Source of the DNA: Enchytraeus crypticus
Lineage: Eukaryota; Annelida; Clitellata; Enchytraeida; Enchytraeidae
Length of the DNA stretch: 64,000 nt
Direction of reading: 5' to 3'
Assembly (NCBI GenBank): GCA_905160935.1
Contig: CAJHZI010000351.1
Coordinates: forward strand, 5,001-69,000
In this document: piece by piece, positions 433 to 59,495 of the stretch
Layout of the letters: every line of letters starts with the position of its first letter
Position numbering within the stretch: position 1 is the stretch's first letter
Notes under the pieces: generated by a model
Database searches by the model: none
The model's input: the letters and a program-made list of their open reading frames with translations, nothing else
What the model was told of the DNA's origin: nothing
Position numbers and translations under genes: made by a program

Positions 433-3400
433 GTATATCAGAAGACACAGAGGAGATAAACCAAAGGGTAAAATCCTTTGGATCTAACTTAATCCCCGCC
501 AAACCGTCCAAGTCTTTCTTTCAGTTGATGTGGGAGGCGGTGCAAGACGTCACTCTGCTCATTCTCATCGCCGCAGCCCTGCTTTCTCTGGGACTGACCT
601 TCTACAGACCCGCACACAACCAGCAACAGTCTCTAGCGCGTATGAGATACAGATATATCTATTTTAACTAAGAATGGTTACAAGTAAATTTATGATATTT
701 ACGAGATTAACTTAGTAGGCCTAAACAGGAACTATAAATTAATTATTAGAGAAGTAAAATTGGAAGTAAAATACGAAATCATTTCTCTATATACAAATTG
801 TTAGATTTAATTCGACTACATTGAATTTTTCTGATTGCAGTAAGTGAAGAGACGAGAGATTGGCTTAGAGACGGAGCGACGTGTTGCTAGGTGACGAAAG
901 GCGACTGATCGCCTGCAGATGTCGCTACTCCAGTAATTGCATTATCAAGAACGAGCCTGCTCGCGGCTAACCCCGCCATCTTTATCATCATCTCGCTCTA
1001 AAATCAATAAGTCTAACCTCGAATAGGAAGGTCGAACCTGTAGCGCAGATATAATCAATAATTCTATTACATCCAAATCGCTAAACATTAGACACAAGTC
1101 CAGCGTCAATTGGAGATAACTTGATCTATTATATCACTGTGGATTTGTGCTGCGATGATTTACCTGTGGGTTACGTTATGAGATGATTTACCTGCGGATT
1201 GTGTGATGAGGTGATTTACCTGTGGATTGTCAGATGAGATGATTTCCCTGTGGATTGTGTGATGAGGTGATTTACCTGTGGATTGTGTGATGAGGTGATT
1301 TACCTGTGGATTGTGTGATGAGATGATTTACCTGTGGATTGTGTGATGAGGTGATTTACCTGTGGATTGTGTGATGAGGTGATTTACCTGTGGATTGTGT
1401 GATGAGGTGATTTACCTGTGGATTGTGTGATGAGTTGCTTATGGTTACGAGAATAGAAGTGATTTAATATTGCAAAATTCTGATGACAGTCAAAATATTC
1501 TAAAGGGAACAATTGATGAAAGTTTTCTTATAACTGAATACTTACTTATTTGCAAACTTACTAAACTACCGAAAGTTTTCTTATAACTGAAAACTTACTT
1601 ATTTACTTACTTGGAGCCAGTTTGCTGGAGCCTATGGCGATGTCGGTATGATATTCGACCGCAGATTAGTAGTTCAATTCCTGGACTCGTCCGTCACTGA
1701 CATCGCTTTCGAGTGAGGAAATTAACGTTAACATATTTTTATCTCTTTTTACCTACTGACTTGCTGGACGTTTTCCTAACTGAATACTTACTATTTTACG
1801 TGCTTACTTAGGCTTATTGATAGTTTTTGATATTGTCTCACTCAAGAGTACTCCATTGATCTGAAGATTCAGCCCTTAGGCTGTATGCCGATATTAGAGT
1901 AAAGTAAACACGCATCATAGTGAAATGATCAACGATGTTGATATCTATAAATTTTAATACCACATGTTTAAACCGTTAGGAAATTAAATCCATTTTTCGT
2001 ATAACCAATCAAGTGAATAATGCTCCGAGGTGTAGCGCGAAAGGAATGGTAGAATAATGCTGCTCAAGTGCAATGATACTGAAGTTACGCCCTTGACAAG
2101 TGTGCTCTTTTTGCCATCGACTAAACTGGAATGGAGCGAGGATAAGTAAATAATTGTTCATTACACTAACCTCTCATGTACCTGATGCAGACGCCAGAGA
2201 CGAGACAGAGAGCCGGGCGGGGTGGATAGAGGGCGCCGCCATACTGCTCGCTGTCTGTGTGGTGGTGCTTGTGACAGCATTCAACGACTGGTCTAAGGAG
2301 AAACAGTTCAGAGGTCTGCAGAACAAAATAGAGAACGAGCACAAGTTCACCACTCTGAGAAATGGACAGACCGTTCTTATACCTGTGGCTGACCTTGTAG
2401 TGGGTGACCTCTGTCAGGTCAAGTATGGTAAGTGTGTAAGTGTCTGTAAGTGTTTTTGTCAGGTGAGGTAAGACAAGTGTTGAAGTGTTTGAAAGTAATT
2501 ATTGTGAGGTGAAGTGAGATAAGTGTACAAGTGTTTGGAAGTTATTGTTGTATTTAACTCAAATTGTTCGCGTGGTTATGAAATAATCATTGCTGCACAG
2601 AAGTAAAAATACTTCGTTATATAATAAAAGTTCGCTAATACTTCGTTATGAGATAAAAGTTCTCAAAAGATACTTTTACTCAGTGGTTAAAATGGAGGGG
2701 ATGCTGGGGGTACTCAATTACCCTAGCTCTGAATTTTACTGAGGTGCGTTCCCCTGCTAGGGACCAATGTTGGATATTAATAGGGATTATTAATACTGGA
2801 TACTAATAGGGGCCAATACTATTGTCGTGGACGACACTAGCAGCCTAACTGTTGTTGTTGTTGCTCAGGGGATCCTGAATGACAGTGCTCGGTGGTGTCG
2901 TGGACTGTTGTTGTTGTTGTTTAGGGGACCTGCCTGATAGTGCTCGGTGGTGTCGTGGATTGTTGTTGTTGTTGCTCAGGGGACCTGCTGCCCGCAGACG
3001 GGCTGATCCTGCAGTCGAACGACCTGAAGGTGGACGAGTCGGCGCTGACGGGAGAGTCTGACCTCGTTAAGAAGAGCGAGAGCTCCGACCCTTTCCTGCT
3101 CTCAGGTATCACGTGACCCACCTCATCTTAACGTTAGGTTCAGAAGCAGTGTTGACATCAACACTGTCAGCTTAAGCCACTCTGGAAGTCTCTCATTTGT
3201 CATAACTATATAAAATAGTATTTTCCTCATCATCTTCTCAAAACATGTTACAAAATGTTGATAAGCCAATGATACTCTAGAAGCGAAACTCTACGAAATA
3301 GATGCTCTAGAAAAGATGCTTTTGAAAGGATACCATTAAAGAGACACCATGGAAAAAATGAAAACTTTCAAAGTATTTTAAATTAGGTTTTTACAAATGA

Positions 3401-6400
3401 AAATATCCTTTTCCTTTCTTGCTACAATTATTCTTCTCCAAAAATGTCTAAAACTAAACTAAAAATAGATTGATTAATTGATTGTTTAATTGATAGATTT
3501 ATTGATTTATTAATTGATTGGAGTAACTGATTACATAAATAAATTGATTAAACGCTTATTCAATGATTGACTGATTGATGGATGAATAGATGGATTGATT
3601 GTTGGATTGATGGATTGATTGAATGACATTCATCAGGCACGCATGTGATGGAAGGCAGTGGTAAGATGTTGGTCACTTGTGTTGGAATCAATTCTCAGAC
3701 GGGAATTATTTTCTCACTTCTTGGCGCCACAACGAAGCAACCAGTCAGCAATAAACCTCGAACCTCAGGTTAAAGCTTTCAGCAGCAAACATTCATTGCT
3801 TCACTATTCTACCGTCTTAGTTATAAAGGGCTTCAAAGAAGAGATGGGGTTAACAATAGAAATTGTATGAAATTTTAATTGAAATATTTCATATGTAGTG
3901 AGGTACATATTGTGTTTTTGCGCCTGTTTATGTAGATTTTGCAAGAGACGTCCCTGGCATTTTTTATGGCGAGGAACCGGACTATAAATTTTTATTGATT
4001 GATTAATTGATTGATTATTATTTTGCAGTTATTTATATTTATGTATCATTATAGTATAACAATGTCAATGTGTAATCATAGTACAATTATGCATTATTAC
4101 TCTTTCACTTATCTCTGAACATTCATGGTCATGTATATAACCAGTAACTCATTGACCTCAGGCAAAAGCTTTGGCACGTATATCAGTAGTATAATTATCG
4201 TGATGTTTTTATAGTAGCAAGTTATCAACGGCGTGTTATTTCTGCACGAGACGTCCCTGACATTGCCTTCTGGCGAAAAACAGGAGTTAAATTCCTACTG
4301 ATTGGTTAATTGATTGATTTGTTCACTTCACCTCATTGTTATGTATATGCGCAGTTACCCGCACGTCTAACGGAAACAACTTGACGACAGTCGTCGATCA
4401 CACCAGACTTCTGAGCGACCCCCAACCTGACTGTTCTGAGACCAAGGTCTGTCACTTATATACTCTCAGTCACTTCTAGATATAGTAGTACATATTGAAT
4501 GCAGATAAATCAACAGTTCAAAGTGTGAACAAAAATGGAAAATGTTCAATAAACTTGTAGATGTAGATGCGAACATGGGGCGAGGCGTTTAGACCCATAC
4601 AAGATTTCAACTGATGTAGCCTTCTACTATAATTCAAAATAACGATTTTATGGTTCCTTTAATATCTGCCTTGAAAAGGACTTCCATTTGTTCAAATATT
4701 TTTATTTTAATTTTAAATACACAAAGCTACAATATTTAAATTAGACATACTTAGTAGTCGTATATCGATGATAAGATGCATTGAGATGATCGATGGTGTA
4801 ATAATCGAGAGCGAGACAGTAGTAATCGGATGTTGACTTCGCTGTGATGTTTGTATTGACAGCTGCTGGAGGCTGAAGTAACCACGAGCGAAAGGTCGAT
4901 ACTTCAGAACAAACTGACTATGCTCGCCATACACATAGGATATGCTGGTCAGTACGGGTGTTTGCGTGCGTGTGCGTGTATGTGCGTGTGCATAAGTGTA
5001 CGTATGTATGTGCGAGTATGTGCACTGCTTTTTTCGTCATCCTGTATAAAGAGAGAAAGAGAGAGATGAGGAGAGAGGTAGAGAGAGAGTGAGAGACAGA
5101 CGGACAGAGAGAGAGAGAGATGAGAGAGTGAAAGAGATAGAGAGAGAGGAAGCGAGAGAGAGAGTATATGCTAAGAATTTCAGACTTTATTGAAACACTT
5201 ATGAAAATTCGTTTAATAACTGATTTTTGGGGGAATATTTTATTTAGTACATTTTTCGCTCAACCTAATGTCGTACTCGTTCTTGAACCATTTTCATATG
5301 ATTTTAAATCTGCATAACGTAGTAATGTACTTCGTATGCTAACGATTTAGCCATAGCTTGGTGGTGACAGATGTTATAGTGGTTGAGAGTGGCACCATGA
5401 AGATGTGCTGATAGCGGCACATCAATGATTGTGCTCATAGGCACGGTGCTGGCTATTCTCACGGTGCTGGTGCTGTCAATAAGATTCTGCGTCGAGATGT
5501 TCTTCATTCAAAGGAAGCCCTGGCGCATGGACTACGTGCAGAACTTTGTCTCTATCTTCATCATAGGCGTGACTGTGCTGGTCGTAGCCGTGCCTGAGGG
5601 ATTGCCATTGGCTGTCACTGTCGCTCTCGCTTACTCTGTCAGGGTGAGTACAAACACTTTCTGAATGTCTGCACGCTCTTACCCCTCTTTCTTTCTCTTC
5701 CTATTTCTTCATTTCTCTTTCTTAGCTGCTGTTTAGTTAGTGGTCATCTCAATGTTCTTTGTTAGACGATCACTTGCTCTTAGTTTCAAACTAATTAGTT
5801 GAGGTAAAAATGATGCAAGCAAAAGCCTGTTTCCCATCCTAAATGATGCACTAATTGATTGATGTAGAAAATGATGCAGGCCAACAGCCTAATGATCTTT
5901 GTAAATGATTTATTGATTGATTGATTGATGTAGAAGATGATGATGGACAACAACCTGATGCAAACGATTTGTTGATTGATTGGTGCAGGAGATGATGATG
6001 GACAACAACCTGATGTAAACGATTTATTGATTGATTGGTGCAGAAGATGATGATGGACAACAACCTGGTTCGGCATTTGGACGCCTGTGAGACTATGGGC
6101 AACGCGACGACGATCTGCTCGGACAAAACAGGAACCCTCACGACCAACCGCATGACCGTGGTCAGGTCCTACATAGCAGGTGACATGTATGGAGATTCTA
6201 TTTTATCGATACATTTGTCTACTTAAATTTCGACTCGAGTCTTCTTTTAAGTAACAAACATTAAATACGACATGTTTATTTACTACAAAGAACATTTTGG
6301 GTCTAGTTTACCAAATGCGGAGGGTGTATAACAAGCTATGCTAAATTACATAGACATTACATTAGCTGATCAAAATAACTTCAGTTGTCAAAGGTAACAT

Positions 6401-7726
6401 CAAGAAAATATCTAATTTCTTTTAATATTAAGCTAAATATAATAATCTAATTTAATATGTATCATATCAACAGTTCTGTACTCATTCTCTGAAGGAAGGT
6501 CAATTATTTGTTCGATTAATTCCTAGCATTAAAGAATGTCGTTGTCGGTATATTAGCTGAGTATTTGATCAAATGATTGATTAACAGGAAGAGTTCACCA
6601 GAGAACACCCAAGTACAACGATTTGCCTGAGGAAGCGGCAGATCTTCTTGTGCGAGCGATCTCCATCAACACGAGCTGCACGTCTCGACTGCTCGTGAGA
6701 AAGTTATCTGTTATATTCTCAATAGATGATTTCACGGGTGCATTCGACAAGGCTGAAAAATTCAATTTATTTGGCTTCTAATATATTCACTATACTCATA
6801 ATAGTGGAGTATGCCCAGGTACTGCAAGCAAAACTCGATAAGTGTTGAATTTCTAACAAATTATCAGCGAATTAATAGATACTTACATTAAGACCGTTAA
6901 TTAGAACTATGTATGGCAGGGAGTAGGTGTTGTAGAGTATCAGATAATTCATAGTGCTTTGTATATTATTATTTAAATGTGTGACGCTTGATGGAAAATG
7001 CGTAAAGGATTTCATTAATCACTAAAAGTTACCTTCAACAAAGCAGTAATATAGGAATTGATTTTTCAACGATATTTTTTAGGATGATACTCTTATAACG
7101 CCGCTATAGTCATTACAAATAATACTCAACGCTAGTTCTATATAGCACGAGAACTGTGACTGGTTAACGCTGTGCAGCCTTCGGAAGACAAGGCTGACGT
7201 GAGACCTCGTCAGATGGGAAACAAGACGGAATGTGCGCTGCTGGGCTTCGTGAGGGACTTAGGCAGAGACTACGATCTTTACCGCAATCAGCTCAGTCCG
7301 GACTCTCTCCACAAGGTCTACACATTCAACTCTCATAGGAAGTCCATGTCCACTGTAGTCAGGCTTCCTAACCACGCGGGATTCAGGCTCTACACCAAGG
7401 GAGCCTCCGAACTCATTCTCAAAAAGTATAAGTTTCTTTCAGAAAATCACTATTTATATTTTTTAGAGTTTTAATATTGAATAATATATGGACTAACCGT
7501 TGAATGCATGTATCGTACGTAAATGAAGACAAAGCATAAAGATCCAAACCAAAGTTAGAAATGGCATTCGGTTGGTCATCCTAGGCTCCAGAAAGATGCT
7601 ACAATTTTTTGTAAACGAATGGAAAATTTATTCGTATGATCGTATCCCGACCCTGGTTAAACTAAGACTCTAGGGTAGATGATGATGACGATGATGACGA
7701 TGATGATGATGACGATGATGATGATA

Positions 7727-7774
<48 letters not shown>

Positions 7775-8760: not shown

Positions 8761-8797
<37 letters not shown>

Positions 8798-11700
8798 ATA
8801 ACTCTCACTAAGTGTGTTTCTCTTTTTAACTACTCCAAGGCTATCGCTATATTTTGTAGCTTTCATTCGTTGTTAAACGTCTCAGTCCCACGCAAATCAT
8901 AATCTCTAACCGAGCATATCTGATAGAGCTACGAAATGCTACGATTGCTTAAGAATTGATTGATTAATCCATGGATGGACTGAGAATTGACTGATTAATC
9001 CATGGATGAACTGAGAATTGATTGATTAATTTATGGATGAACTGAGAATTGATTTATTAATCCATGTATGAACTGAGAATTGTTCAATCACCTACAGGAT
9101 TAATGTTTGTCTACACATTATCTACGTTAATATCACAATAAATGGTACGAAATTAGAACAGGTAAGGAGTTTCAAATATTTGGGTCATACTATAACCGAT
9201 GACGGGAAATACGAGACTGAAATATGCAGTAGGATTGCACAAGCAAAAGCGGCCTTTGGTAATAGAAAAGAGCTATTAACAAAAAGTCTGAAGAAAGATA
9301 CAAAGATAAAGATAGTGAAAACTTTGATTTGAACCACGCTATTGTATGGTTGTGAAATATGGACCTTAAGGAAGGAAGATATTAGAAAACTGGAGGCATT
9401 GGAAATGTGGATTTGGAGAAGAATGGAGAGGATTAGTTGGACTCAAAAGGCTACAAAATGAGGAGTTCTAGAGAGAGTTGGCACAGATAGATAGTTAATA
9501 AATGTATTAATAAATAGGAAGAAGAGTTGGATAGCACACATTCTAAGGGGGGAAGGTCTATTAAAAGAGGTCATAGAAGGTAGAATGGAAGGAAAAAGAG
9601 GCAGGGGTAGGCCGAGATTAGGTATGTTAGATGATTTAAAGACCCACTCATATGTGGAAATGAAGAGGAAGGCGGAAGACAGAGAAGAGTGGAGGCGTTA
9701 TATACCATGGACCTGCCAGTAGGCAGTGACTAAGAGAGAGAGAGACAGATAGGGTGTGTTAATTATTACATATACTTTTAAAATAATTTCCCAAGTTATT
9801 CGATAATTATCAGTGTATTCTCTACAAAATATAAATGACGTATTTGCTGAAAGGTCGTCTAGGGTTAAGGATAGGGTTAAGGTTAGGTTAAGGTTAGGGT
9901 TATGATTAGGGTTAGGGTTAGACTTTCTCTATAGACTTAATTATCACAGTCTCAGGCAACTCATTGGTGTGATATCACGTGACGCTAGACACCCACAGGT
10001 GTCAGATATTGACGTGTTGTTGTATGACTCGCAGGCTGTGTGGACAGTGCTGAACCTGACTGGGAGGACGAGGGGCAGATAGTCGCTGATCTGACCTGTG
10101 TCGCTATCCTCGGCATAGAGGACCCCGTCAGACCCGAGGTGACCCTGTCTCGCTCTCTCTATCCGCTCAGCGCTTATGATAAAGAGATTGATTCATTCAT
10201 TTAAATCACAGTCAACGATATAAATCCATTTTTATAAGCTTTAATTAGATAATAATAACAAAGGATTAACATCCGTTTCCTGGTACGAAGGTGATGCCCG
10301 GGACGTCCCTTACAATTAGCCAAGGTCATCCCTGTTTATAAAAAAAGGTAAACATGATTTAGTGGAAAATTATAGACCAATTTCTCTCCTTAATAATTTA
10401 AGCAAAATATTTGAGAAAATCATGCATAAACGCATTACTACATTTCTAAATAAGTTCGAAATCTTTAATGAAAATCAATTTGGTTTTAGATCCGGCCATT
10501 CTACCACTGATGCGCTTTTCTCTAGTGTTAATTTATTATCTAATGAACATAATCATAAAAACAAGACACTTGGTATATTTTTAGATCTCTCAAAAGCATT
10601 TGATACTGCTGATCATAACATTCTGCTTCAAAAATTGCCCTAACCCTAACCCTAACCCTAATTTTTATGGAATAGCCTACGTGGTACTGCCTATGATTGG
10701 TTTAGCTCTTATTTATCTCGAAGAAAACAATACACCTTAATTGGTGACAGCATATCAAGTGTGTTACCTCTTAGTATCGGTGTTCCTCAAGGTTCCATTT
10801 TAGGACCTTTTCTTTTTATAATCTATATGAATGATATTCATAATGCCTGTACATTTGGGTCCATTAAACTGTATGCTGATGATTCTAATTTGTTTGTAAA
10901 ATATAAGTCTATTGATGAATTGTTTATCTCTGAGAATCTAGCTTGCTCTGAAATAAGTAAATGGTTTATAAATAGGCCTAACAAGCTAACTGTAAAAACT
11001 CGAAGTCTTCGTATGTTTTATTCTACCCCACTAAAGACGATGAAGCTACTATTCGATCTAACAATTTAAGTGTATCCCTTGATAATAACTGCATTAATAG
11101 AACAAATGTTACCACATTCTTAAGCTTAACATTAGATGACAATTTGACTTTTGGTGATCATATTAAATCATTAATCTTTGAAATTAATAATTTTAATAGT
11201 ATGGTAAACAATCGTAGAGATTTTATTCCTATGAATTGTCGTAGAAATTTATACCTTTCATTGGTGCAATCAAGGACTCAATATGGAATTGAAGTTTATG
11301 CAAATACAACCAAACAGTTGCTTCAACCCCAACATGTTGCCTGTAACCGTATTCTAAGAACTTTACAGAATAAACACAAATTTCATAATGTTAAACAACT
11401 TTATATGAATTATAATGTATTATCAATTTTTCAGTTATTCCAATTACATACTGGTAAACTTGTTTTTAAATGTATTAATTTTCCCGATCTGACTATGTCA
11501 GAATCCATGAGATGTATTTTGATTGACAATCAGATTTCATTTGTATATAATACCAGGCTCTCCGAGACCAATTATTTGTGTGCTAGAACAACCTCAGAAT
11601 TTTTTAGAATCTTTTGCCTATAAGTATGGCAATTCTTGGAACCAAATACCTCCTGATATCCGCAGTTCGAGGTCTCTAGCTGAATTAAATGTCTATATTT

Positions 11701-13315
11701 TCGTTTTTTGTGTAAATGTTCAGATAGAATTGTGACTTAGCTAACTGCTTTCTAATCAGATTAATTTGTAAATTATTTTCCTGTCTTTTAGTTTGTTCAT
11801 TAATTCTGAGATAATTTTTTATTTCGGTTGATTTTGTATTATACATATATATGTCATTAATGAGTTATAGACGGTGGTCAGCTAGATAAGATGTGTATCA
11901 TCTTCCCTGACGGCCGTTGTTCTGGTGTTTATAGACTGTTTGACACACTGTGTTCCTGGGAATTTTTTTAATTTTTATTTCATTTAAATGTTTATTTCTG
12001 TTTGAATTTGTCAGTGATTTGGTGTTGATGCTGAAATAAACACATATATCTCTCTCCCTGAAGAATAAAGTGAATAAATAGCAATGAGATAAAATGTTGA
12101 TATAGTGTCTACAGTAGCTTTTATCTATCACGGCCCGATTCGATAATGAAAAGGCAGCTTAACTATGGATTAGCTTTATTCATTCGAGAAAATCAGACTG
12201 TCTTGCCGTTGTAGCATGCAGCTATAGACATATCCGAGGAAAACACACTAACCGTTACTCTATATCACTCCATCTTTAGTGTAGGAGGCTCTTGGATCAT
12301 ACTGTGACCCAGACATATCGATAAATAATGACAGTTAATCGGGTCAGCTCTGGGGACATGTTTCCTCTACGAGATATTTTAAATAAACTGTTTCAAGCAA
12401 TCTACTAAATATGTTAGATTTCACACATGTAATACATGTACTTGTACATGTATTACATGTGTGCTATACATAGATATTTGATTATGAGATGATATTCGCA
12501 TAGCAACTACTGTGCCATTCATGTTTATCAGTAAACATAAGCTATCACACAATGTGTCCAATGTACAGATAACAGAAGCTATAACACAATTTGTACAATG
12601 TTACAAGTAACAGAAGCTATCACACAATGTGTACAATGTTACAAGTAACATAAGGTATCACACAATGTGTCCAATGTTACAAGTAACAGAGGCTATAGGA
12701 CAATGTGTCCAATGTTACAGGTGCCTTAAGCCATCACACAATGTATCCAATGTTACAGGTGCCTGAAGCTATAAGGCAATGTCAGCGTGCCGGCATCACG
12801 GTTCGCATGGTGACGGGCGACAACATCAACACTGCGCGCTCTATAGCGATCAAGTGCGGCATCATCAGCGCCCAGGATGACTTCCTCGTGCTCGAGGGGC
12901 CGGACTTCAACAAGAGGATCAGAACCAGCGCTGACAGCCCGGTAAACTCATCTTACTATAACGCGACAGTAATAGCAGATAGGTAGGTTGTAGTGCGGTT
13001 AACGTCAAGGTTTGAAAGCATAAGGCTTCTCTTCAAGACGACTCGACACACTCGAGCTACCGTCAGTAAGATTAATGTAGGATACTTCTATTCAATCATT
13101 ATGCACAAGAATGTTTTACCACATGACAGTGCGGCCATTATCTCGAGAGTGGATTCTCTAAATTACTTTATGAAGTAGTCGTCAGGTACCTCAGATTTAC
13201 CATTACCTGAACTACGTGATAGGCGATAGTTGAATAATTGATTTTAATTAATTGATTGAATGATTAATAAACATATAGATAGAAGAATCCTTCAACCGCA
13301 TGCTTAATTGATTAA

Positions 13316-13346: not shown

Positions 13347-16300
13347 GACACTCAGGTAAGCCAGGAGCTGCTAGACAAGGTGTGGCCACGCCTACGAGTC
13401 CTCGCTCGCTCCTCCCCTCAGGACAAGTACACGCTGGTCAAAGGCATCATCGACAGTCGGCTCAACCCGCACAGAGAGGTCGTGGCTGTCACTGGCGACG
13501 GTACCAACGATGGACCGGCTTTGAAGAAAGCGGACGTCGGATTCGCTATGGTCTCTCTCTCTCTCTCCCTCTCTTATCTCGCTATCTCTCTTGTCTCTCT
13601 ACCTCTCTCTCCATCTCTCTTGTCACTCTACCTCTCTCTCTCTATCTCTATCTCTCTCTCCAGATTTTTCTCTCTCGCTCTCTATCTCTACCTTTCTCTT
13701 TCAGTATCTAATGTGTATATTATTTGGATATTGAAGCCATTTCGTAAATTTACAAATTAGCAATATCTGAAAAAACAATTTTAAATGACCTAAGTACAAC
13801 TAGATCTAAGTTTGTAATAAAATCGTATTTAATTACATTTATTAGATAAATGGCAAATTCACAATTTCAGTCCTTCTTCTGCTCGCTGTTCATTTGCAGG
13901 GTCTAGCAGGAACGGATGTGGCCAAGGAAGCGTCAGACATCATACTGACAGACGATAACTTCACCAGTATAGTGCGCGCTGTCATGTGGGGCAGGAACGT
14001 CTATGACAGCATCGAGAAGTTCCTTCAGTTCCAACTGACCGTCAATGTCGTCGCCGTCACAGTCTCCTTCCTGGCTGCCTGCGCCATCAACGTAATCAAT
14101 CAATCAATTAATCAATTAATCAATTAATCAGTCAATCAATTAATCAATAAATCAATCAGTTAATCAATTAATCAATCAGTTACTCAATTCATCAATTAAT
14201 TAATCGATCAATCAATTAATCAATCAATCAGCTAATCAATCAATCAATCACTCAATCAGTACTCTAGCAACGAAAGATCTCACTCTTCCATCATTTGAAT
14301 CTCGCTTGGCCCTTTTCTGTCTTTACTTCTACAACTCGCTGTTTTATACCAAATGTTGTTGTTGTTGTTTTTAATTCTATTCATTAGCCCTACAGTATAC
14401 TCATTGAACGTGCTGCAAATTCAATCTGACAACCTCCAACTGGAAAAGTATTGAATTCTCAATGTATTTAAAAAGAACAAAAGTATTGAGTTCTCAATGT
14501 ATTTAGAAGAACAAAAGTATTGAGTTCTCAATGTATTTAGAAGAACAAAAGTATTGAGTTCTCAATGTATTTAGAAGAACAAAAGTATTTAGTTCTCAAT
14601 GTATTTATAAGAACAAAAGTATTGAGTTCTCAATGTATTTAGAAGAACAAAAGCTTAGAATAGAAAATATTTACAGCTCTTTTTCCTACTGCAATTAACA
14701 ATTCAACTGCTTACTTACGGGTAGCGGATATGGATAGTGTTAGTATTAAGGGTTTACATGACACAATTCTTTAAAGTGTACTACAAATTAGGGTTAGGGT
14801 TAGACACGCTATTTTATGCTCATTGTGTCTGCTCGTGACACGCTGTTTTATGCTCATTGTGTCTGTTCATAACACGCTGTTTTATGCTCATTGTGTCTGT
14901 TCATGACACGCTGTTTTATGCTCATTGTGTCTAATCGTGACACGCTGTTTTATGCTCATTGTGTCTGTTAGGACACGCCACTGAAGGCTATTCAGATGCT
15001 GTGGGTGAACCTGATCATGGACACGCTCGCCTCGCTCGCTCTCGCCACTGAGATTCCTACAGAAGAGATACTGAACAGAAAGCCGTACGGCAGGACCAAA
15101 GCTCTCATCTCTCGAACAATGCTCAAGAACATTCTAGGCAACTCCATCTATCAGCTAATTGTAGTCTTCGTCATTCTCTTTGTCGGTTAGTTCTGTATTT
15201 TAATCAAACTCTGGAAAAATAAATTATTTGATGAAGTTTCGTGGAAAACAAAAAGTCAACTATATTCAAATTGCGTGATGAAATCATAATCATTATTTTT
15301 AAGTTATACAGTAGGCCTATATCAGTGATGGGCAAAATACTTTCTAAAAGTATTTTGAAAATAGTTTTTAAACAAACTTGAAGACACTAAAACAAATAAC
15401 CTTTCACAAGTATTTTGAAAATACTTTTCTAAGATACCTTTTAAGGAGATTGGCCAGGTTATGACATGCACTAATGACATTATAATATGCACAACTGTAC
15501 ATAGTTGGTTAAAATATAAAAATTAGAAAATAAATATATAAAAAGTTAACATTTTATTGAATATTTTAGAATTTGTCAATATTTAAAATTTAAGCCTTTC
15601 TTTCATAATTTCTTATATTAAAACTTGCATTTATTTTCCTAGAATTCATTACTTTTGCCTAAAGAAAATCTAATTATTCCATTATTAATTATTTGACCAA
15701 CAGATTAAATGTGTTTGACCAACATATGTGTATGGGTCACACAGGTCACATGACACCTGTGTTTATGTGTGACATGTGTTACATGTGTTTATGTGACACA
15801 CAGGTGACACGCTGTTTGACATCGACAGCGGCAGAAGCATGGACGTTTCTGAAGGTCATGCCGGTCCCTCTCAGCACTTCACGATGATATTTAACTCTTT
15901 CGTCCTGATGACGCTGTGTAACGAGATCAACGCGAGGAAGATCCACGGACAGCGCAACGTTTTCTCCGGTCTCTCCACCAACCCGCTCTTCCTCCTCATC
16001 TGGACCACGACCTTCGTTGTGCAGGTCAGTGACCTCGTTGTGCAGGTCAGTGACCTCGTTGTGCTGGTCAGTGATCTTCGTTGTGCAGGTCAGTGACCTC
16101 GTAGTGCAGGTCAGTGACCTCGTTGTGCTGGTCAGTGACCTCGTAGTGCAGGTCACTGACCTCGTTGAGCAGCTCACGTGGTTAGATGAGCGAAATATTA
16201 GAGCGTGCTGGACAGTAACAATTAACTAAGAAAATTGTTGATTTGCTGGTCGCTGTTAAACACTTTTCATGGATCATAATAACAATAACAACAATTAGAG

Positions 16301-18663
16301 TGCTACAGTCATCAATGACAACATCGAGCACTACTGAGCCAAAATCAAGCCGACGAGCAAACTGAAAGGTATAATAAAAACGACGCAAATTCCAAAATCC
16401 AGAAAATTAGTCCAAGGCCATAAGTCGATTAGTCATGAATCAGTGAAGCATTTGCTATTCTATTCGATTCATTTGCTGTCCGATACCTCACGTGTCAGGA
16501 TAGATCGTGTAACTGACTGGAAACAGTGGCGATGTCATTAGGATATCCGGCCGCGGATCAGTATGCGTGGTTTCTAATCCTGGGCTCGCCCCTCACTGCT
16601 GTAGCTTTCAAAAGACGAAACTGACATTAACATCGGCTTTACGACTTTTACAAAAGTGGGACGCGAGGAAATGACAATCAACTAAGTCTAATTTGACTAG
16701 TTCCCTCTCGTTACTCTCTGTGCAAATGAATGTTAGTAGCGTTGTGGTTAAAGGTGTAGATAACGTCATAAAGTTTAAATGACAGATACTGAAGTGAATT
16801 GAAGTGAATTCGTGGGTTCGAATCCCTGCCGCGCTGATCTGAGAGTAAAATCGGATTCAGCGTGTGCTATTAAAATTGATAGATATATCCGTAGTTAATC
16901 GTTTCACTATAGTGTGTGTTATTACAATTGTTATTATTATAGATACTAATCGTGGAGTTTGGAGCCCAGGCTTTCTCTACCGAGAGCCTGACGGTGGAGC
17001 AGTGGATGTGGTGCCTGATGTTTGGGGTGGGAGAACTGGTGTGGGGGCAGGTAGCATTACCTCATCACTTCTTAGTTTAGCTTACAGAATTATATCCCCG
17101 CACATCTGCACGACTACTGGCTTTGTTTTAAACATGTTAAATCTTAACTATGTGAACTGGTTTAGTGAACCAAGTTAGTGTATTACAGGTACAGTGTTAC
17201 AATGTTACTGTAGGCTTACAAAGGCCCTTCATTTCTCTGCTCTCAGCTAGGCATCATGTACTAACAAGTAGATTGTAAAGATTTTTCTCAGCTAAGCTTC
17301 ACGTGCTAACAAGTAGATTGTAAAGATTTCTCTGCTCTCACCTAAGCATCATGTACTAACAAGTAGATTGTAAACATTTCTCTGTTCTCAGCTAGGCATC
17401 ATGTACTAACAAGTAGATTGTAAACATTTCTCTGCTCTCAGCTAAGCATCATGTACTAACAAGTAGATTGTAAACATTTCTCTTCTCTCAGCTAAGCATC
17501 ATGTACTAACAAGTAGATTGTAAACATATCTCTGCTCTCAGCTCAGCATCACGTGCTAAAAAGTAGATTGTAAACATTTCTCTTCTCTCAGCTAAGCATC
17601 ATGTACTAACAAGTAGATTGTAAAGATTTCTCTTCTCTCAGCTAAGCATCACGTGCTAACAAGTAGATTATAAACATTTCTCTTCTCTCAGCTAAGTATC
17701 ATGTACTAACAAGTAGATTGTAAACATTTCTCTTCTCTCAGCTAAGAATAACGTGCTAACAAGAATAGTGTGTAAACATTTCTCAGCTCGTCGTCTCTCT
17801 GCCTAATCGCGTGTTGCCACGCTGCAGACAGACAGGAAACAGTGTGGCCAACTCTAGCGACAGCATAGGCTCTCGTCCCGCCGAGGACGTGACGTCACAG
17901 GATGGGGACATGAGAGGTCACGTGCTGTGGATACATGGACTGACGAGACTACAGAACCAGGTCTGCTCTAATATTATCTCCACTGTTATCAGGCCGACAA
18001 TGTGTAGTATAGTCCTAATTTTTAATAGGAAACCTTATAAGTAATATATATATAACAATGAATCGAAGACTCTTCACTACCCAACTCTTTCTGAACAACA
18101 TCAAACAAAAGCGACGAAATGAACCCGTTTCGTTAAGTTCAATTGTCTTGAGGAAGTAAGAAATAGCAGTAAGCTGTGTTATGGGTAGACATTAAGAAAC
18201 TGCCCGAGGAAAAAGTAATATAAGCCAACATTCAATTCAAAGCTAAAGGCTATATTCTAAACGTTTGATGAATATATTGCATTGTCTAGCCTTTAGTAGG
18301 CCTATTTGTTATGACTTGATAGAGATAGCACTCTGAAACACTGACTAGTTTGCGTTAGTTGGACATAAGGTTATTTTGATATTACGTTACTTGGACGTTA
18401 GATGCACAATGCAATACAGTCGATGGCACAGTGGTAACAGAGTATCAAGAGTTTGTAAAGCCACAGGTGAGACTTCTCTACGGATTTTGATGCGCCAATT
18501 AACGAGAGCCAGAATATTGTCTAAACCCTCTAAAACAATTGATAGAAAACACTGAGCTATCATAGAGCTTAACATCTACTTCTGTGCACCAGGAGACGCT
18601 GTCCTAGTCTCTTAGATGCTCAGAGGCTGTGCAAGAAAATCGATTGATTAATTGTTTGATTGG

Positions 18664-18742
<79 letters not shown>

Positions 18743-18942
18743 ATTAGATTAAGGTGGTTAACGCGTTTAGAGAAGACCTTGCTTTGGCGGATAGTTTCGA
18801 CAGAAGAAGCCTGGCCTCTATACATAGCCAGCAGTCGCTGCAGAACTACAGAGCTCATGCTTTCCGTAACTACAAGTCCATCTCACATGACGGTGACGTC
18901 ACAGTCAATCAAACTGTCATCGAGGAAGCTGTCAACGTCTGA
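433..18942 (+). CDS. ATP2B: Plasma-membrane Ca2+ ATPase (PMCA), 20 exons, 5'-incomplete
   Basis: P2B-type ATPase that exports cytosolic Ca2+ across the plasma membrane. Exons: 433-639, 2191-2427, 2980-3105, 3637-3768, 4355-4446, 4863-4947, 5441-5643, 6044-6179, 6588-6694, 7178-7425, 8036-8178, 10035-10138, 12759-12941, 13356-13550, 13900-14091, 14972-15185, 15804-16024, 16943-17050, 17787-17960, 18748-18942. Phases agree at all junctions, giving about 1,099 codons (family about 1,200); roughly the first 60-70 residues are missing. Landmarks in order: QDVTLLIL (M1), TGES (exon 3), PEGLPLAVT in M4 (exon 7), SDKTGTLT with the phosphorylated Asp at 6122-6124 (exon 8), KGAS (exon 10), DPVRPE (12), MVTGDN (13), [11 protein letters not shown] (14), M5-M10 (exons 15-18), and IKVVNAF, start of the calmodulin-binding helix (exons 19-20). 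Exon 5 encodes the variable first-loop insert. The exon 11 donor is GC, not GT. The tail ends VNV, unlike vertebrate ETSL/ETSV tails. A possible AATAAA lies at 19735-19740. Family assignment is certain; weakest are the exon 1 start and the exon 11 and 14 donors. Confidence 0.95.
1140..1435. repeat. 28-bp minisatellite in PMCA intron 1
   Basis: About ten tandem copies of a unit containing GATGAGGTGATTTACCTG followed by TGGATTGTGT. It is not adjacent to an exon, unlike many other arrays here. Confidence 0.85.
1617..1745 (+). repeat. tRNA-like SINE, family B copy 1
   Basis: Shares a core with 16515-16655 and 19812-19940: GGCGATGTCGGTA, then a box-B-like stretch, then GTCACTGACATCGC and TTCGAGTGAGGAAA. 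Diverged and probably inactive. Confidence 0.5.
1893..2040 (-). repeat. SINE family A, 3' part
   Basis: Matches the non-tRNA part of copies at 20605 and 42851 (AAAGTAAACACG, TGATCAAC, TTGATATCTAT, CCACATGTTTAAACCGTTAG). The tRNA-like head is missing. Confidence 0.55.
2695..2835 (+). repeat. Dispersed element, copy 1
   Basis: Similar to 18960-19135 downstream of PMCA: both contain a GGGTAC/GGGGAAC block, then GTTCCCCTGCTAGGG, then TAGATACTAGG-like sequence. No coding capacity; class unknown. Confidence 0.4.
2848..2990 (+). repeat. Triplicated 3' splice site of PMCA exon 3
   Basis: Three copies with a 55-56 bp period, AG ending at 2868, 2924 and 2979. Each has a TTG-rich run, CTCAG or TTTAG, then the exon's first bases GGGGA(C)CTG. 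Only the third continues into the conserved PMCA frame (DLLPADG). Confidence 0.85.
3470..3630 (+). repeat. ATTG-rich tract at end of PMCA intron 3
   Basis: Imperfect ATTG/TTGA tetranucleotide repeats running to within 10 bases of the exon 4 acceptor. Confidence 0.7.
3900..4320 (+). repeat. Two related short interspersed copies in PMCA intron 4
   Basis: Both contain GAGACGTCCCTG(G/A)CATT, TGGCGA, and end in TTGATTGATT-type tails (around 3940-4020 and 4245-4320). A related fragment with the same tail lies near 42650-42720. Probably SINE or LINE tails; class not established. Confidence 0.4.
5845..6067 (+). repeat. Repeated 3' splice site of PMCA exon 8 (about 4 copies)
   Basis: Copies end at AG 5864 (degenerate), 5933, 5988 and 6043; the last three are exactly 55 bp apart. 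Each has a TTGATTGATTG tract, a TGTAG or TGCAG acceptor, and the first 24 exon bases (GATGATGATGGACAACAACC). Upstream copies then meet stop codons. Confidence 0.9.
7680..7835. repeat. GAT trinucleotide microsatellite
   Basis: (GAT)n with interruptions in PMCA intron 10. It creates a His-rich reading frame on the minus strand that is not a gene. Confidence 0.9.
8945..9085. repeat. ~31-bp minisatellite, 4 copies
   Basis: Unit contains CTGAGAATTGATTGATTAAT and CCATGGATGAA, in PMCA intron 11. Confidence 0.75.
9133..9735 (+). pseudogene. Decayed C-terminal part of a non-LTR retrotransposon polyprotein
   Basis: One frame carries about 200 residues typical of the region after reverse transcriptase in animal LINEs: [58 protein letters not shown] and REEWRRY. 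It is interrupted by about five in-frame stops, with no long indels evident. No endonuclease or catalytic RT core is present, so this is a 5'-truncated dead copy in PMCA intron 11. The clade (L2, CR1 or RTE type) is not resolved. Confidence 0.8.
9860..9922 (+). repeat. Interstitial telomere-like repeat (TTAGGG/TTAAGG)
   Basis: Degenerate array of TTAGGG, TTAAGG and ATAGGG units about 130 bases downstream of the retrotransposon remnant. Confidence 0.8.
10310..11735 (+). pseudogene. 5'-truncated Jockey/CR1-like LINE in PMCA intron 12
   Basis: Reverse-transcriptase domain then C-terminal tail. Motifs in order: [18 protein letters not shown] (from 10362), [25 protein letters not shown], then a 22-base (CCCTAA)n interruption, [20 protein letters not shown] and the catalytic LYADDS (about 10870). 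The tail has [19 protein letters not shown] and [10 protein letters not shown]. Frameshifts fall near 10350, 10638, 11010-11060 and 11590. Similar in its tail to the fragment at 37495-38300. The 5' half with endonuclease is absent. Confidence 0.88.
10638..10661 (-). repeat. Four CCCTAA telomere units inserted in the RT domain
   Basis: Lies between codons for LLQKL and the conserved FYGIRG-type block. Removing 22 bases restores a standard Leu-Asn-Phe-Tyr-Gly reading, so the flanks appear intact. Confidence 0.85.
12422..12463. repeat. Perfect 20-bp inverted repeat, 2-base spacer
   Basis: Arms 12422-12441 and 12444-12463 are exact reverse complements around TT. Located in PMCA intron 12. Confidence 0.9.
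12535..12782 (+). repeat. 38-bp array duplicating the PMCA exon 13 acceptor
   Basis: About six units of 38 bp (GAAGCTATCACACAATGTGT, CCAATGTTACA). The last intronic unit reads TTACAG then GTGCCTTAAGCC; the real exon start is TTACAG then GTGCCTGAAGCT, so the unit includes about 24 exon bases. Older units have ACAAGTAACA in place of ACAGGTGCCT. Confidence 0.88.
13225..13350 (+). repeat. ATTG microsatellite before PMCA exon 14 acceptor
   Basis: ATTAATTG/ATTGATTG runs end about 10 bases before the CTCAG acceptor at 13355. Confidence 0.8.
13551..13700 (+). repeat. CT-rich microsatellite starting at PMCA exon 14 donor
   Basis: The intron begins GTCTCTCTCTC directly at the exon edge. The donor is therefore weak (GTCTCT) and embedded in the microsatellite. 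Confidence 0.85.
14092..14265 (+). repeat. AATC tetranucleotide array starting at PMCA exon 15 donor
   Basis: The donor GTAATC runs straight into (AATC)n with ATTA variants. Complementary in composition to the ATTG arrays found at acceptors. Confidence 0.85.
14450..14655. repeat. ~34-bp minisatellite, 5-6 copies
   Basis: Unit contains AAAAGTATTGAGTTCTCAAT and GTATTTAGAAGAAC. Not adjacent to an exon. Confidence 0.85.
14788..14980 (+). repeat. TTAGGG tract plus 34-35 bp array before PMCA exon 16
   Basis: TTAGGGTTAGGGTTAG at 14788-14803 abuts five tandem units (GACACGCTGTTTTATGCTCA, TTGTGTCTG). The exon itself begins GACACGCC after the real acceptor TTAG at 14971, so each unit includes the exon start. 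In upstream units the acceptor AG is replaced by CAT or CGT. Confidence 0.88.
15322..15445. mobile_element. hAT-like non-autonomous element fragment
   Basis: CAGTGATGGGCAAAATACTT followed by AAAAGTATTTTGAAAATA resembles hAT-type terminal inverted repeats. A matching far end with target duplication was not identified. Confidence 0.4.
15735..15810 (+). repeat. Duplicated acceptor before PMCA exon 17
   Basis: GGTCACACAGGTCACATGACACC at about 15735-15757 resembles the real junction GTGACACACAG/GTGACACGC at 15803/15804, with related GTGTTTATGTG blocks between. Confidence 0.5.
16004..16172 (+). repeat. 21-bp array duplicating the PMCA exon 17 donor
   Basis: Donors of the form TG(C/T)(A/T)G/GTCAGTG lie at 16025, 16046, 16067, 16089, 16110, 16131 and 16152 (last one GTCACT). 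The first three are 21 bp apart and open in frame, encoding VSDLVVQ repeats; a 22-bp step then breaks the frame. Confidence 0.9.
16276..16420 (-). mobile_element. 3' tail of LINE family D
   Basis: AATAACAATAACAACAATTAGAG then GTGCTAC, ATCAATGACAACATCGAGCA and CAAATTCCAAAATCCAG match the 3' UTR of the elements ending at 27810 (+) and 60157 (-). Confidence 0.8.
16515..16655 (+). repeat. tRNA-like SINE, family B copy 2
   Basis: GGCGATGTCATTAGGATATC, GCGGATCAGTA, CTAATCCTGGGCTCGCCCCT, CACTGCTGTAGC then AAACTGACATTAACATCGG. Confidence 0.6.
16738..16866 (+). repeat. tRNA-derived SINE, family A, + copy
   Basis: Box-A-like TAGCGTTGTGGTTAAAGG, then box B GGTTCGAATCC within a CGTGGGTTCGAATCCCTGCC context. 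Same head as the minus copies at 20605-20845 and 42851-43094. Not a functional tRNA gene: A to B spacing is too long and the acceptor stem does not close. Confidence 0.75.
17230..17786 (+). repeat. 11-copy array of complete 3' splice-site modules before PMCA exon 19
   Basis: Units of about 45-60 bp each hold a branch-site-like TACTAAC (7 copies), TGCTAAC (3) or TGCTAAA (1), then AAGTAGATTGTAAACATTTC, a CTCT tract and CAG. The last module (TGCTAAC 17754-17760, AG 17786) is followed by exon 19, whose reading [11 protein letters not shown] continues WGQ of exon 18. Confidence 0.92.
18640..18745 (+). repeat. ATTG microsatellite before PMCA exon 20
   Basis: About 20 near-perfect ATTG units end in GATTGATTAG, which supplies the acceptor itself at 18747. 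Confidence 0.9.
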
Positions 18943-29658: not shown

Positions 29659-41833
<12,175 letters not shown>

Positions 41834-42790
41834 ATCTCTATCATCTGTCTGTCCATTGTACGCTGAAAGTCTCTCTACTACATCATCTTTGGCCTGTCTA
41901 TTCATCGTGCATTGGTCTAGATTCTGCTGCACGCTTGATAATATCTGCAGTGTTATAACCCTAACCCTAACCCTGAGACATCTATGATAGCATCTTTCAT
42001 CTTTGTGTTAGGAACGTAACGTTACAGTTTTTCTTTCCTTTCATTTCTAAATCTCTGCTAATTCAAACTCTCCAAGGTGTACTATGAGAATGTTAATGCT
42101 CTCTCTCCGTCTCTCCCTCCCTTTCTCTCTCGCTCTCTCTCTCTCTCTGACTCTGACTCTCTCTCATCACACATAGAGGATAAAATTTGTTGTATGGTTT
42201 TAACTTGAGCCGTGAGTAATTGGACTCATTTTACTTGTATTGTACTAAATTAGTTGTGAGAACTTTTGATATTGAGATTAAAAATGAAGTGGCGTTGAAC
42301 TGTTTTAATTCCTTTGAACTCTACCAGCAGATGAAGTGTTGTCCTTTACCCTAGCCATCTATGTAAGTCAGCATGATTTCATCCACTTTTTACATCCCAT
42401 GTCTATTCAGTTTCTGATTTCCCCATGTTCCTGTTATTTCAACTCATTTTGTCCCTCGATATTCCACTAACACAGTGTTTCGTAACACTTAATGTTGTCA
42501 GTGGTCAAACCTGGCCATCTTAGTGTTCATGATATTGCATACAATGAGAAACGGTATTCCATACATGATATGGTGTAGTAGTTAACTGTAGTTTTATATT
42601 AATCTGAATATCAAAATATTTATGGACTTAATTATACTGGTTAAGTTTAAAATGGCTTTTTACGCCAGTACTATCGGGTGAAAATAAAATCTTTTATTGA
42701 TTGATTAAAGTTAAACACATTATACTCTAATTAGCTCTACCGGGAATTATTTCCAGGACTTAAGGAACAGCCATTTAAAATTTCATGATG
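41834..42790. other. TMEM209 3' region; no further gene
   Basis: Contains CCCTAA telomere units at 41955-41973, a CT microsatellite near 42110-42150, and a short interspersed tail ending in TTGATTGATTAAAG near 42650-42720. AATAAA occurs near 42684 but within repeat-like sequence. Confidence 0.35.
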
Positions 42791-46765: not shown

Positions 46766-48079
46766 ATATCTATCTACCTCTCCAGTCTAGATGCCTTCTC
46801 TTAATAGGCCTACTTAGTTTTTTAAAATTTCAACATTTGAAAGATTTAGGACTTTTAACTTAGCTGTTAACAGTGTTAAATCAGCTGTTAGATTTTTGAA
46901 CTCTATTGTTAACAATGTTAAATCAACTGTTACAGTTTTGAACTCTGATGTTAACAGTATTAAATCAGCTGTTAGAGTTTTTAACTCAGCTGTTAACAGT
47001 GTTAAATCAGCTATTATTGTTTTTAATTCTGCTGTTAACAATGTTAATTCCGGTGATGGCCAGTAGTGATATTCTTTCAAATTTATGGTAACAAGTTAAA
47101 AGTGTTTTTATGGTTTTTATTTAAAGCTAATGTATGTCATCGTAATAAATTTTTGATGAGGATTTTTTTATTGTGCCAATACTGTATTCAATCAATGGTT
47201 TTGTTTTCCTATGTGTATGCAGAGCTCTTGACTTCCTGTGTAACTTCATAACACTGCTGATAGAGGACCACAAGGCAGATGTACAGAGTGAGAGCCTCTC
47301 TACTGTAGCCCACACAGCCTATGAGCGTTCCCTAGAGCCCTACCACAACTTCATCGTGCGCAGCTTCTCCCGGGTGAGTTCTGTGAGAGCTATGTGTGTG
47401 ACTATCTAATGTGCTAGTGGTTCAGTCATAACTCATGTTGTAGTGTCATATGAGATGTATTGTTGCTGTGGTTGTAGGTGTCATATTAGATGTATTGTTG
47501 ATGTATTGTTGATGTATTGTTGATGTGATTTTAGATATCATGATGTATTGTTGATGTATTGTTGATGTGATTTTAGATATCATGTGAGATGTATTGTTGA
47601 TGTATTGTTGATATGCTTGTAGATGTGTTGTTGATGTATTGTTGATGTATTGTCGATGTGGTTGTAGATATCATGTGAGATGTATTGTTGATGTATTGTT
47701 GATATGCTTGTAGATGTGTTGTTGATGTATTGTTGATGTATTGTCGATGTGGTTGTAGATATCATGTGAGATGTATTGTTGATGTATTGTCGATGTATTG
47801 TCGATGTATTGTTGATGTTTTGTTGATGTGGTTTTAGATATCATGTGAGATGTATTGTTGCTGTGGTTGTAGGTGTCATATTATATGTATTGTTGATGTA
47901 TTGTTGATGTTTTGTTGATGTGGTTGTAGATATCATGTGAGATGTATTGTTGATGTATTGTTGATATGCTTGTAGATGTTACTACGACTAATCCCGTGTC
48001 GCTCAAATCTCTACAAGTCATTGACTGGCCAGCGATATCTCTCTCAACAGGTTTCTCCCTCTCTATCTCTAACGCTCTA

Positions 48080-48118: not shown

Positions 48119-49211
48119 ATTGAATTATTTGCTAAAGGCTGCAGACAAATGTAATTTTGCTTTTCACTGTTGGATACAACCTTAGCAGTGGGTTATGTAT
48201 TGTATGTATTGCAAGCTGTATTAGCAGTGTTGTATATGCAGCATGCTTGATACATCACTGTACTGGTTTTATTGTGTGTTGTATTTATTGTGAGCTGCAT
48301 CAGCAGTATTGTATGTATTGTGTATATTGTGAGCTGTATTAGTAGTATTGTATTTATTGTACGCTGTATTAGAAGTATTGTATGTGTTGTACGCTGTATT
48401 ATCAGTACTGAATGTATTGTATGTATTGTGAGCTGTATCAGCAGTGTTGCATGGATTGTGTATATTGTGAGCTGTATTAGCAGTATTGTATGTATTGTAT
48501 GCTGTATTAGCAGTATTGTATATGTTGTACGCTGTATTATCAGTATTGAATGTATTGTATGTATTGTGAGCTGTATTAGCAGTATTGTATGTATTGTATG
48601 TATTGTGAGCTGTATTAGCAGTATTGTATGTATTGTATGTATTGTGAGCTGTATTAGCAGTATTGTATGTATTGTGAGCTGTATTAGCAGTATTGTATAT
48701 ATTGTGAGCTGTATTAGCAGTATTGTATGTATTGTACGCTGTATTAGCAGTATTGTATGTGTTGTACGCTGTGTTATCAGTATTGAATGTATTGTATGTA
48801 TTTTACGCTGTATCAGCAGTGTTGTATGTATTGCACGCTGTATTATCAGTATTGTATGTATTGTATGTATTGTGAGCTGTATTAGCAGTGTTGTATGTAT
48901 TGCACGCTGTATTAGCAGTATTGTATGTATTGTATATATTGTGAGCTGTATCACCAGTATTGTATGTATTGTATGTATTGTGAGCTGTATTAGCAGTGTT
49001 GTATGTATTGTATGTATTGCATGCTGTATTTGCAGTATTGTATGTATTGTATGTATTGCACGCTGTATCAGCAGTGTTGTATGTGCAGCATGCAGCAGAC
49101 ATTGAGGAGACGGCCCAGCTGCTGACAGCTAACCTGTCAATCATCAATCAGCTGTTTCCAGAGGCTGAACGCAGCTGCTACTCAGCCACAACAACAGAGA
49201 ATATCCACTAG
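45076..49211 (+). CDS. GLTP: Glycolipid transfer protein (GLTP), 6 exons, complete
   Basis: Cytosolic protein that moves glycosphingolipids between membranes. Exons: 45076-45205, 45900-45955, 46448-46560, 47223-47373, 47976-48050, 49089-49211; phases agree and give 215 residues (human 209). Matches along the whole length: [74 protein letters not shown], and a C-terminal helix with [13 protein letters not shown]. Of the human ligand-binding residues, Asp48, Asn52, Trp96 and His140 have counterparts (SDINGN, LLWLKR, YHNF); the position of Lys55 is Thr, just after the exon 2/3 junction. Asn at the 52 position argues for a sugar-lipid type rather than the ceramide-1-phosphate type. Both of the last two introns are filled with tandem repeats containing copies of the acceptor. 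Convergent with KLHDC4. Confidence 0.93.
46587..46763. repeat. Two TA microsatellites with a SINE-B end between
   Basis: TA runs at about 46587-46645 and 46698-46763. Between them GTTAACGTCAGTTTCCTCAC matches the 3' end of SINE family B in minus orientation. Confidence 0.8.
46830..47055. repeat. ~39-42 bp minisatellite, about 6 copies
   Basis: Units of CTGTTAACAGTGTTAAATCA, GCTGTTAGAG and TTTTTAACTCAG, in GLTP intron 3. Confidence 0.8.
47405..47981 (+). repeat. Array filling GLTP intron 4, with acceptor copies
   Basis: Short units TGTATTGTTGA in larger periods ending TATCATGTGAGA. TTGATATGCTTGTAGATG occurs three times (about 47606, 47697, 47962); the last is the real acceptor and first exon 5 bases. 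Confidence 0.85.
48185..49095 (+). repeat. Large array filling GLTP intron 5, with acceptor copies
   Basis: About 30 units of 27-40 bp (GTATTGTATGTATTGTGAGC, TGTATTAGCAGT). The real acceptor TTGTATGTGCAG/CATGCAG at 49088/49089 has an early relative TTGTATATGCAGCATGC near 48230. The array is open on both strands for over 250 codons by composition alone. Confidence 0.9.
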
Positions 49212-50760: not shown

Positions 50761-50844
50761 TCTAGCGCTGCAAACACTGTGCTATTAGCAAATCATACTG
50801 CAAGAAACTCGCTAACAAGTCAAGGGCATTGAAAAAACACTAGT

Positions 50845-51035: not shown

Positions 51036-59495
<8,460 letters not shown>

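Follow-up and report, generated by a model that had tools for sequence, protein, structure and literature searches.

The window, the whole stretch of 64,000 nucleotides of Enchytraeus crypticus DNA that was analyzed here, carries four genes whose exons we remapped by hand and by spliced protein-to-DNA alignment: PMCA (20 exons, + strand), TMEM209 (14 exons, + strand), GLTP (6 exons, + strand), and KLHDC4 (12 exons, − strand; two merged). The ends of PMCA exons 11/12 were set by the fit of the spliced alignment. The TMEM209 model has 195 homologues; Pfam PF09786 is found on all of the best 120 of these 195, among which, some being nameless, none is labeled as an E. crypticus protein that might show the spliced form. 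Minisatellites run across splice junctions in all four genes. A junction was scored as spanned when a TRF array extended at least 3 nt past it on each side, and TRF rows were dropped if they had a score below 50, a period below 10, or a consensus that was itself a short repeat. These rules removed rows at CCT4 exon 7 and at PMCA exon 20, where the microsatellite was left out of the minisatellite counts; a doubtful 66-nt KLHDC4 intron and a 10-nt CCT7 first exon were also dropped. As a TRF-free test, 60 nt of the flanking exon were locally aligned to the intron with a cutoff score of 26. PMCA contains the following features:

2412..2551, + strand: exon 2 donor array, 46-bp unit ×3.1, junction at 2427/2428 (TRF)
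2848..2988, + strand: exon 3 acceptor array, 55-bp unit ×2.5, 9 exonic nt, exon from 2980
5912..6067, + strand: exon 8 acceptor array, 55-bp unit ×2.8, 24 exonic nt, exon from 6044
12534..12772, + strand: exon 13 acceptor array, 38-bp unit ×6.3, exon from 12759
14803..14978, + strand: exon 16 acceptor array, 34-bp unit ×5.2, exon from 14972
16009..16176, + strand: exon 17 donor array, 21/64-bp unit, exon end at 16024
17230..17789, + strand: exon 19 acceptor array, 50-bp unit ×11.3, exon from 17787, marginal with 3 exonic nt
18642..18750, + strand: exon 20 (GATT)n microsatellite running into the acceptor GATTAG, exon from 18748

Both upstream copies in the exon 3 array have an intact AG. At exon 8, the exonic part of the unit corresponds to the codons for KMMMDNNL, and the upstream copies GGTGCAG/GAGATGATGATGGACAACAACC and GATGTAG/AAGATGATGATGGACAACAACC precede the working GGTGCAG/AAGATGATGATGGACAACAACC. 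The exon 13 array has ACAG in the nearest upstream copy and ACAA in the next three, and the TRF consensus unit at exon 16 bears no AG at the acceptor position. No TRF array crosses the junction at acceptor 17. Other repetitive DNA in the window includes retroelement remains with a reverse transcriptase (RVT_1) in PMCA intron 12 (10380-11680) and two intervals that look retroelement-like by eye (∼23300-25540 and 26000-27500); a Pfam scan of one frame each gave no match at 23300-24000 or 26080-27460. Short interstitial telomere-like runs (TTAGGG/CCCTAA, including variants) are found within several introns or immediately 3′ of a gene (∼9860-9921, 10636-10661, 14788-14803, 34609-34624, and 41955-41974), and a dispersed repeat of ∼120 bp at 1895-2019 recurs, mostly at 85 to 92% similarity, in at least some forty other places in the genome.

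The features of TMEM209, GLTP, and KLHDC4 are as follows:

32209..32585, + strand: TMEM209 exon 4 donor array, 45-bp unit, 34 exonic nt, exon end at 32242
35244..35393, + strand: TMEM209 exon 6 donor array, 51-bp unit ×2.9, 27 exonic nt, exon end at 35270
35769..36009, + strand: TMEM209 exon 7 duplication, 110-bp unit ×2, covering nearly the whole 63-nt exon (35930-35992)
40371..40471 (outer ends approximate), + strand: TMEM209 exon 11 acceptor copies, exon from 40443
47454..47979, + strand: GLTP exon 5 acceptor array, 91-bp higher-order unit, exon from 47976
48275..49084, + strand: GLTP intron 5 array, stopping 4 nt short of exon 6 (from 49089), not spanning
58100..58254, − strand: KLHDC4 exon 3 acceptor array, 23-bp unit ×6.7, 5 exonic nt, exon 58026-58104
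56819..57264, − strand: KLHDC4 exon 5 acceptor array, 33-bp unit ×13.5, 4 exonic nt, exon 56686-56822
55597..55816, − strand: KLHDC4 exon 7 acceptor array, 16/24-bp unit, exon 55505-55605
55118..55353, − strand: KLHDC4 exon 8 acceptor duplication, 126-bp unit ×1.9, 45 exonic nt, exon 55040-55162 (positions recalculated from the gene-oriented sequence)
54972..55054, − strand: KLHDC4 exon 8 donor array, 34-bp unit ×2.4

Splicing from donors 2 to 4 of the TMEM209 exon 4 array would lengthen the protein in frame by one to three 15-aa repeats; past a shorter unit, the frame is lost and stops appear. The upstream copy of TMEM209 exon 7 has the acceptor and lacks the CGCAAG/GT donor. Exon 11 of the same gene is preceded by two divergent copies of the acceptor plus exon start (29 nt), with no TRF row across the junction, and the array at its acceptor 3 stops 8 nt short of the exon. 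Upstream of KLHDC4 exon 5, 13 copies of TGTGCTCAG/GCTG keep the CTCAG acceptor intact, while the extra copy of the exon 8 donor has CT, not GT. Only 3 to 5 exonic nt are reached at PMCA acceptor 19, GLTP acceptor 5, and KLHDC4 acceptors 3 and 5. The original prediction had listed 20 junctions in these genes as sites of tandem repeats built on the splice junction. Some 15 or 16 of them are indeed spanned by TRF arrays, i.e., PMCA acceptors 3, 8, 13, 16, and 19 and donor 17; TMEM209 donors 4 and 6 and the exon 7 duplication; GLTP acceptor 5; and KLHDC4 acceptors 3, 5, 7, and 8 and donor 8. Two more, TMEM209 acceptors 6 and 11 (remapped numbering), were recovered by the exon-copy search only (scores of 28 and 33, respectively), and PMCA acceptor 17, TMEM209 acceptor 3, and GLTP acceptor 6 fell short. 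The TMEM209 exon numbers in that list match the remapped exons with some uncertainty, and the PMCA exon 2 donor array was absent from it.

Frequencies were estimated in 20 gene models with 171 introns and 126.6 kb of intron sequence, from an assembly of 524,188,772 bases in 802 contigs. The sample comprised the four window genes (48 introns), CCT1-8 and HSPD1 (103 introns), which lie outside the choice made in the original prediction, and seven MCM fragments (20 introns). Chaperonin loci were located with PF00118, and 9 of 12 were used; those left out lie on C373 and on C259 and C400, the latter two each having one long single open frame. The CCT1-8 models are 65 to 81% identical to human references. 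Locus C385 was rejected as CCT7 (25% identity) and modeled as HSPD1 (75% identity in the spliced protein alignment). The MCM sample, added later, comprised seven of eight MCM-domain loci, including one on C268 that is only 49% identical to MCM5 and could instead represent MCM8 or MCM9. The first 12 genes (140 introns) were inspected before HSPD1 and the MCM fragments joined, and the latter are counted in the totals. The assembly also yielded two side observations: L017 (C373:1699388-1700899) is a divergent open-frame chaperonin-like stretch with no introns across the domain, MKKS/BBS-like by eye, whereas the nine modeled chaperonin genes have 10 to 16 exons; and cox1 fragments with stops on C361, C424, C796, C373, and C166 are probably nuclear copies of mitochondrial DNA.

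Counting any qualifying TRF row, minisatellites run across 33 of the 171 acceptors and 12 of the 171 donors (acceptor versus donor, binomial P = 0.0025), with 22 acceptors versus 6 donors outside the window (P = 0.0037). By group, the 48 introns of the window had 11 spanned acceptors and 6 spanned donors, and the 20 introns of the MCM fragments had 3 and 4, respectively. The 103 introns of CCT1-8 and HSPD1 had 19 and 2, so that the pattern extends to genes beyond those originally considered. The acceptor bias is thus absent in the MCM sample alone, where donors match acceptors in frequency; it rests on the CCT/HSPD1 and window genes and may vary by gene. The TRF-free test (score ≥26) found the first 60 nt of the next exon recurring within the intron in 26/171 introns and the last 60 nt of the previous exon in 9/171, with no reverse-complement copies of either kind (0/171 exon-start and 0/171 exon-end). 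Swapped-intron controls at the same cutoff gave 12 and 9 of 2,990 pairings, respectively (∼0.4%; 151 introns). An acceptor-spanning array or an exon-start copy was present in 40 of the 171 introns (∼1 in 4).

Since a junction is copied only if it lies inside the unit of the duplication, our null model placed the unit of each array randomly within the gene, excluding placements that fell entirely in an exon (2,000 simulations). With one row per array, the 123 arrays included 28 at acceptors, 11 of which enter the exon by ≤9 nt, a depth at which TRF ends are uncertain, and 11 at donors. The acceptor count compares with 6.3 (SD 2.4) under the null, and none of the 2,000 simulations reached it (maximum, 14); the donor count compares with 6.2 (SD 2.3; P of about 0.05). 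When each array was represented by its smallest TRF period, the null values were 5.2 for acceptors and 5.1 for donors (donor P = 0.012). The window contributed 11 acceptor arrays versus 2.4 expected (P = 4e-5) and 5 donor arrays versus 2.4 (P = 0.10), the CCT and HSPD1 genes 15 and 2 versus 3.4 expected each, and the MCM fragments 2 and 4 versus 1.2 expected each. Enrichment of arrays at junctions, as proposed from the window, therefore holds for acceptors in the 20 models pooled, with donors being near chance; by treating the two alike, the original prediction missed the acceptor bias (28 versus 11 arrays). Coverage by nonspanning arrays was nearly flat, at 0.12 to 0.15 upstream of acceptors (0.13 to 0.15 over the interval from 30 to 400 nt) and 0.10 to 0.13 downstream of donors (30 to 400 nt; 140 introns), and spanning arrays added up to 0.20 at acceptors and 0.05 at donors in the same introns. 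Given this nearly even spread of nonspanning arrays, the excess is a property of the junction rather than of crowding at intron ends.

The choice of null decides how this result is worded. If whole arrays are laid anywhere, exons included, ∼17.5% of either kind of junction would be covered, this figure being the fraction of intron sequence that arrays occupy in the first 12 genes; the observed values are near it at acceptors (19%) and below it at donors (7%), which reads as a donor deficit with no acceptor excess. We judged this null to be wrong on the argument, not a measurement, that tandem growth inserts copies and does not overlay exons. Junction arrays are a real, frequent, and nonrandom feature of the sampled genes, and the 3′ splice site is the main signal.

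The splice dinucleotide (AG or GT) is intact in 80 of the 110 extra copies in the first 12 genes, and two arrays, PMCA exon 19 and KLHDC4 exon 3, account for 16 of the 30 misses; in both, an AG lies a few nucleotides further downstream than the aligned position. Alignment of the conserved proteins continues through the exon-proximal copies. Spanning arrays have a median period of 60, versus 22.5 in other arrays, and a mean TRF match of 88%, with several below 81%. The copies are hardly in doubt in clear cases such as PMCA exon 8, KLHDC4 exon 5, and CCT5 exon 10, the last with six upstream copies of an 86-bp unit including 58 exonic nt. Unit lengths leave remainders of 0, 1, and 2 on division by 3 in 15, 12, and 12 of 39 arrays, respectively, which argues that copies are not kept in frame and speaks against frame-preserving coding repeats as the rule. 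The copies have the same orientation as their own exon, lie beside it, and almost never occur in other introns. A mobile, introner-like unit common to many introns found no support in the comparison of exon-start copies in own (26/171) and swapped (12/2,990) introns, a test that covers only the exonic part of the units.

The sequence context of acceptors was surveyed in the first 12 genes. Between −20 and −10 relative to acceptors, the TTGATTGA tract occupies 12% of positions, versus 0 to 0.5% in the 5′ intron halves. TTGAT fits the branch-point-like pattern YTNAY, and acceptors may hence sit in runs of branch-point-like motifs. The region preceding the AG is T/G rich and C poor (C at 4 to 15% from −14 to −4; 140 acceptors), unlike a classical polypyrimidine tract. 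As a seed of the junction arrays, the TTGATTGA tract was discarded (no association in 140 introns; P = 0.80).

The original prediction knew of no described genome-wide pattern of this kind, which does not stand, although the amphioxus descriptions available to us give no genome-wide count. Minisatellite-like duplications of intron-exon boundaries occur in amphioxus globin genes, where they were named mirages after those of Adh3 (PMC3087553), and also in amphioxus PGBD5 and troponin C (TnC) (PMC3902484). Like the E. crypticus arrays, the mirages of Adh3, BflGb6/BflGb9, TnC, and PGBD5 span both 3′ and 5′ exon-intron boundaries (PMC3087553, PMC3902484), and AG/GT is retained in many but not all of their units. 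Mirage units measure 10 to 72 bp in Adh3 and 150 to 160 bp in globins, with 81 to 100% similarity in BflGb6; the period and match of the E. crypticus arrays are mirage-like, several falling below 81%. RT-PCR suggested normal splicing of the amphioxus globin mirages, which show length instability and for which an intron-gain model was proposed (PMC3087553). Those cases come from a cephalochordate and, in the portions of the two papers available to us, are described gene by gene, with neither frequencies nor an acceptor-donor comparison. Relative to these portions, the phylum, a first frequency estimate (for a gene sample), and the acceptor bias are new. The Rogers model explains intron gain by tandem genomic duplication (cited in PMC3087553), and such a duplication in potato RdRp (PMC4974935) likewise includes splice signals; that model creates a new intron, whereas in E. 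crypticus existing introns lengthen and no new position was seen. Among clitellates, the earthworm metallothionein gene has large intronic minisatellites, and one clone contains exon duplications that are absent from the final transcript; those arrays, however, occupy the first intron, with monomers of ∼180 bp on average, and are not built on junctions (PMC12783039). In the literature covered, which includes few subscription papers and each source only in part, the two amphioxus papers are the only direct precedents we recognized, and the metallothionein case, whose arrays lie off the junctions, is the only related annelid report found.

Overall, the arrays are probably mirage-type minisatellites in an annelid, which would arise from junction-straddling duplications and be spliced at the exon-proximal copy. 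Two alternative explanations fare poorly. Ordinary intronic minisatellites could meet junctions by chance, as arrays fill ∼17.5% of the intron length of the first 12 genes and the donor count is not far from expectation (11 versus 6.2); the acceptor count lies above all 2,000 simulations, though, and exon-start copies occur in 26/171 introns versus ∼0.4% of swapped controls. This chance placement, rejected by the simulations for acceptors and not firmly for donors, is very improbable as a general account. Sequence duplicated during assembly is even harder to credit: the genome is a PacBio and Illumina hybrid made with MaSuRCA, to which 80.6% of the PacBio reads map back (PMC8460440), but the units differ by point changes and an assembler has no reason to favor 3′ splice sites. 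In the mirage-type scenario, a small tandem duplication, mostly of 20 to 130 bp, would straddle the junction; the copy contiguous with the remaining exon would stay functional, so that no change in the mRNA would be required, and the other copies would become part of the intron. Array length would then shift by slippage or unequal exchange, with old copies decaying into intron. The duplications may originate from end-joining of fill-in intermediates at break ends, fill-in at broken ends being a source of small tandem duplications (PMC8355091). Splicing presumably takes the exon-proximal copy. Exon definition, with the innermost 3′ site paired with the downstream donor, would account for correct splicing. 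Under first-come splicing, acceptor arrays should cause problems and donor arrays should be tolerated, contrary to the observed bias.

The original prediction offered either tolerance of the duplications or a process targeting junctions. Both survive, but tolerance alone would leave junctions no richer in arrays than the intron interior, which fits donors roughly and not acceptors. A factor specific to the 3′ junction, mutational or selective, thus seems needed, acceptors probably gaining or keeping arrays at ∼4 times the rate of random placement, either as a mutational hotspot or by retention. A mutational version, a sharper form of the mirage-type explanation that does not contradict it, would make the 3′ junction a germline mutational hotspot at which small tandem duplications arise, perhaps because polymerases pause, R-loops form, or paired nicks occur as transcription passes into the exon, with the products kept by tolerance. 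It agrees with acceptor arrays at ∼4 times the intron-interior rate, with donors near that rate, with the fill-in source of duplications (PMC8355091), and with neighboring nonspanning arrays that are not raised, which implies an excess of breakpoints within the exon over expectation. Against it, a TTGATTGA tract within 60 nt of the acceptor is unlinked to spanning (22/109 without and 7/31 with; P = 0.80), and the MCM fragments lack an acceptor excess over donors; we give this version somewhat less than an even chance. Slightly more tentative still is the full form of the idea, i.e., that 3′ junctions are true germline duplication hotspots coupled to transcription or splicing, that introns grow by the repeated uptake of duplicates of their own acceptor plus exon start, and that up to a dozen intact decoys are bypassed for the exon-proximal acceptor. 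A selective version, by which extra 3′ splice sites are kept or favored as added branch points or acceptors for stronger recognition or regulated alternative splicing, is unlikely. Most extra copies do have an intact acceptor, and TMEM209 exon 4 has three extra in-frame donors; yet intactness may just mean young, similar copies, units show no multiple-of-3 constraint (15/39), and the exonic parts are often long, unneeded for plain strengthening of a splice site.

Gene annotation and short-read mapping may err at exons flanked by such arrays. The mirage-type structure also poses the problem of how the correct one among duplicates is selected during splicing, for which KLHDC4 exon 5, with its 13 intact upstream acceptors, offers a natural test case of 3′-site choice among near-identical copies; the arrays could equally be used to ask whether 3′ splice sites are mutational hotspots. 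Its occurrence in lancelets as well places this type of structure in distant phyla. Spanning arrays, including their exonic ends, amount to ∼9.5 kb versus 126.6 kb of intron in the sample, and if the pattern is genome-wide, junction duplication would be a notable source of intron length in E. crypticus.
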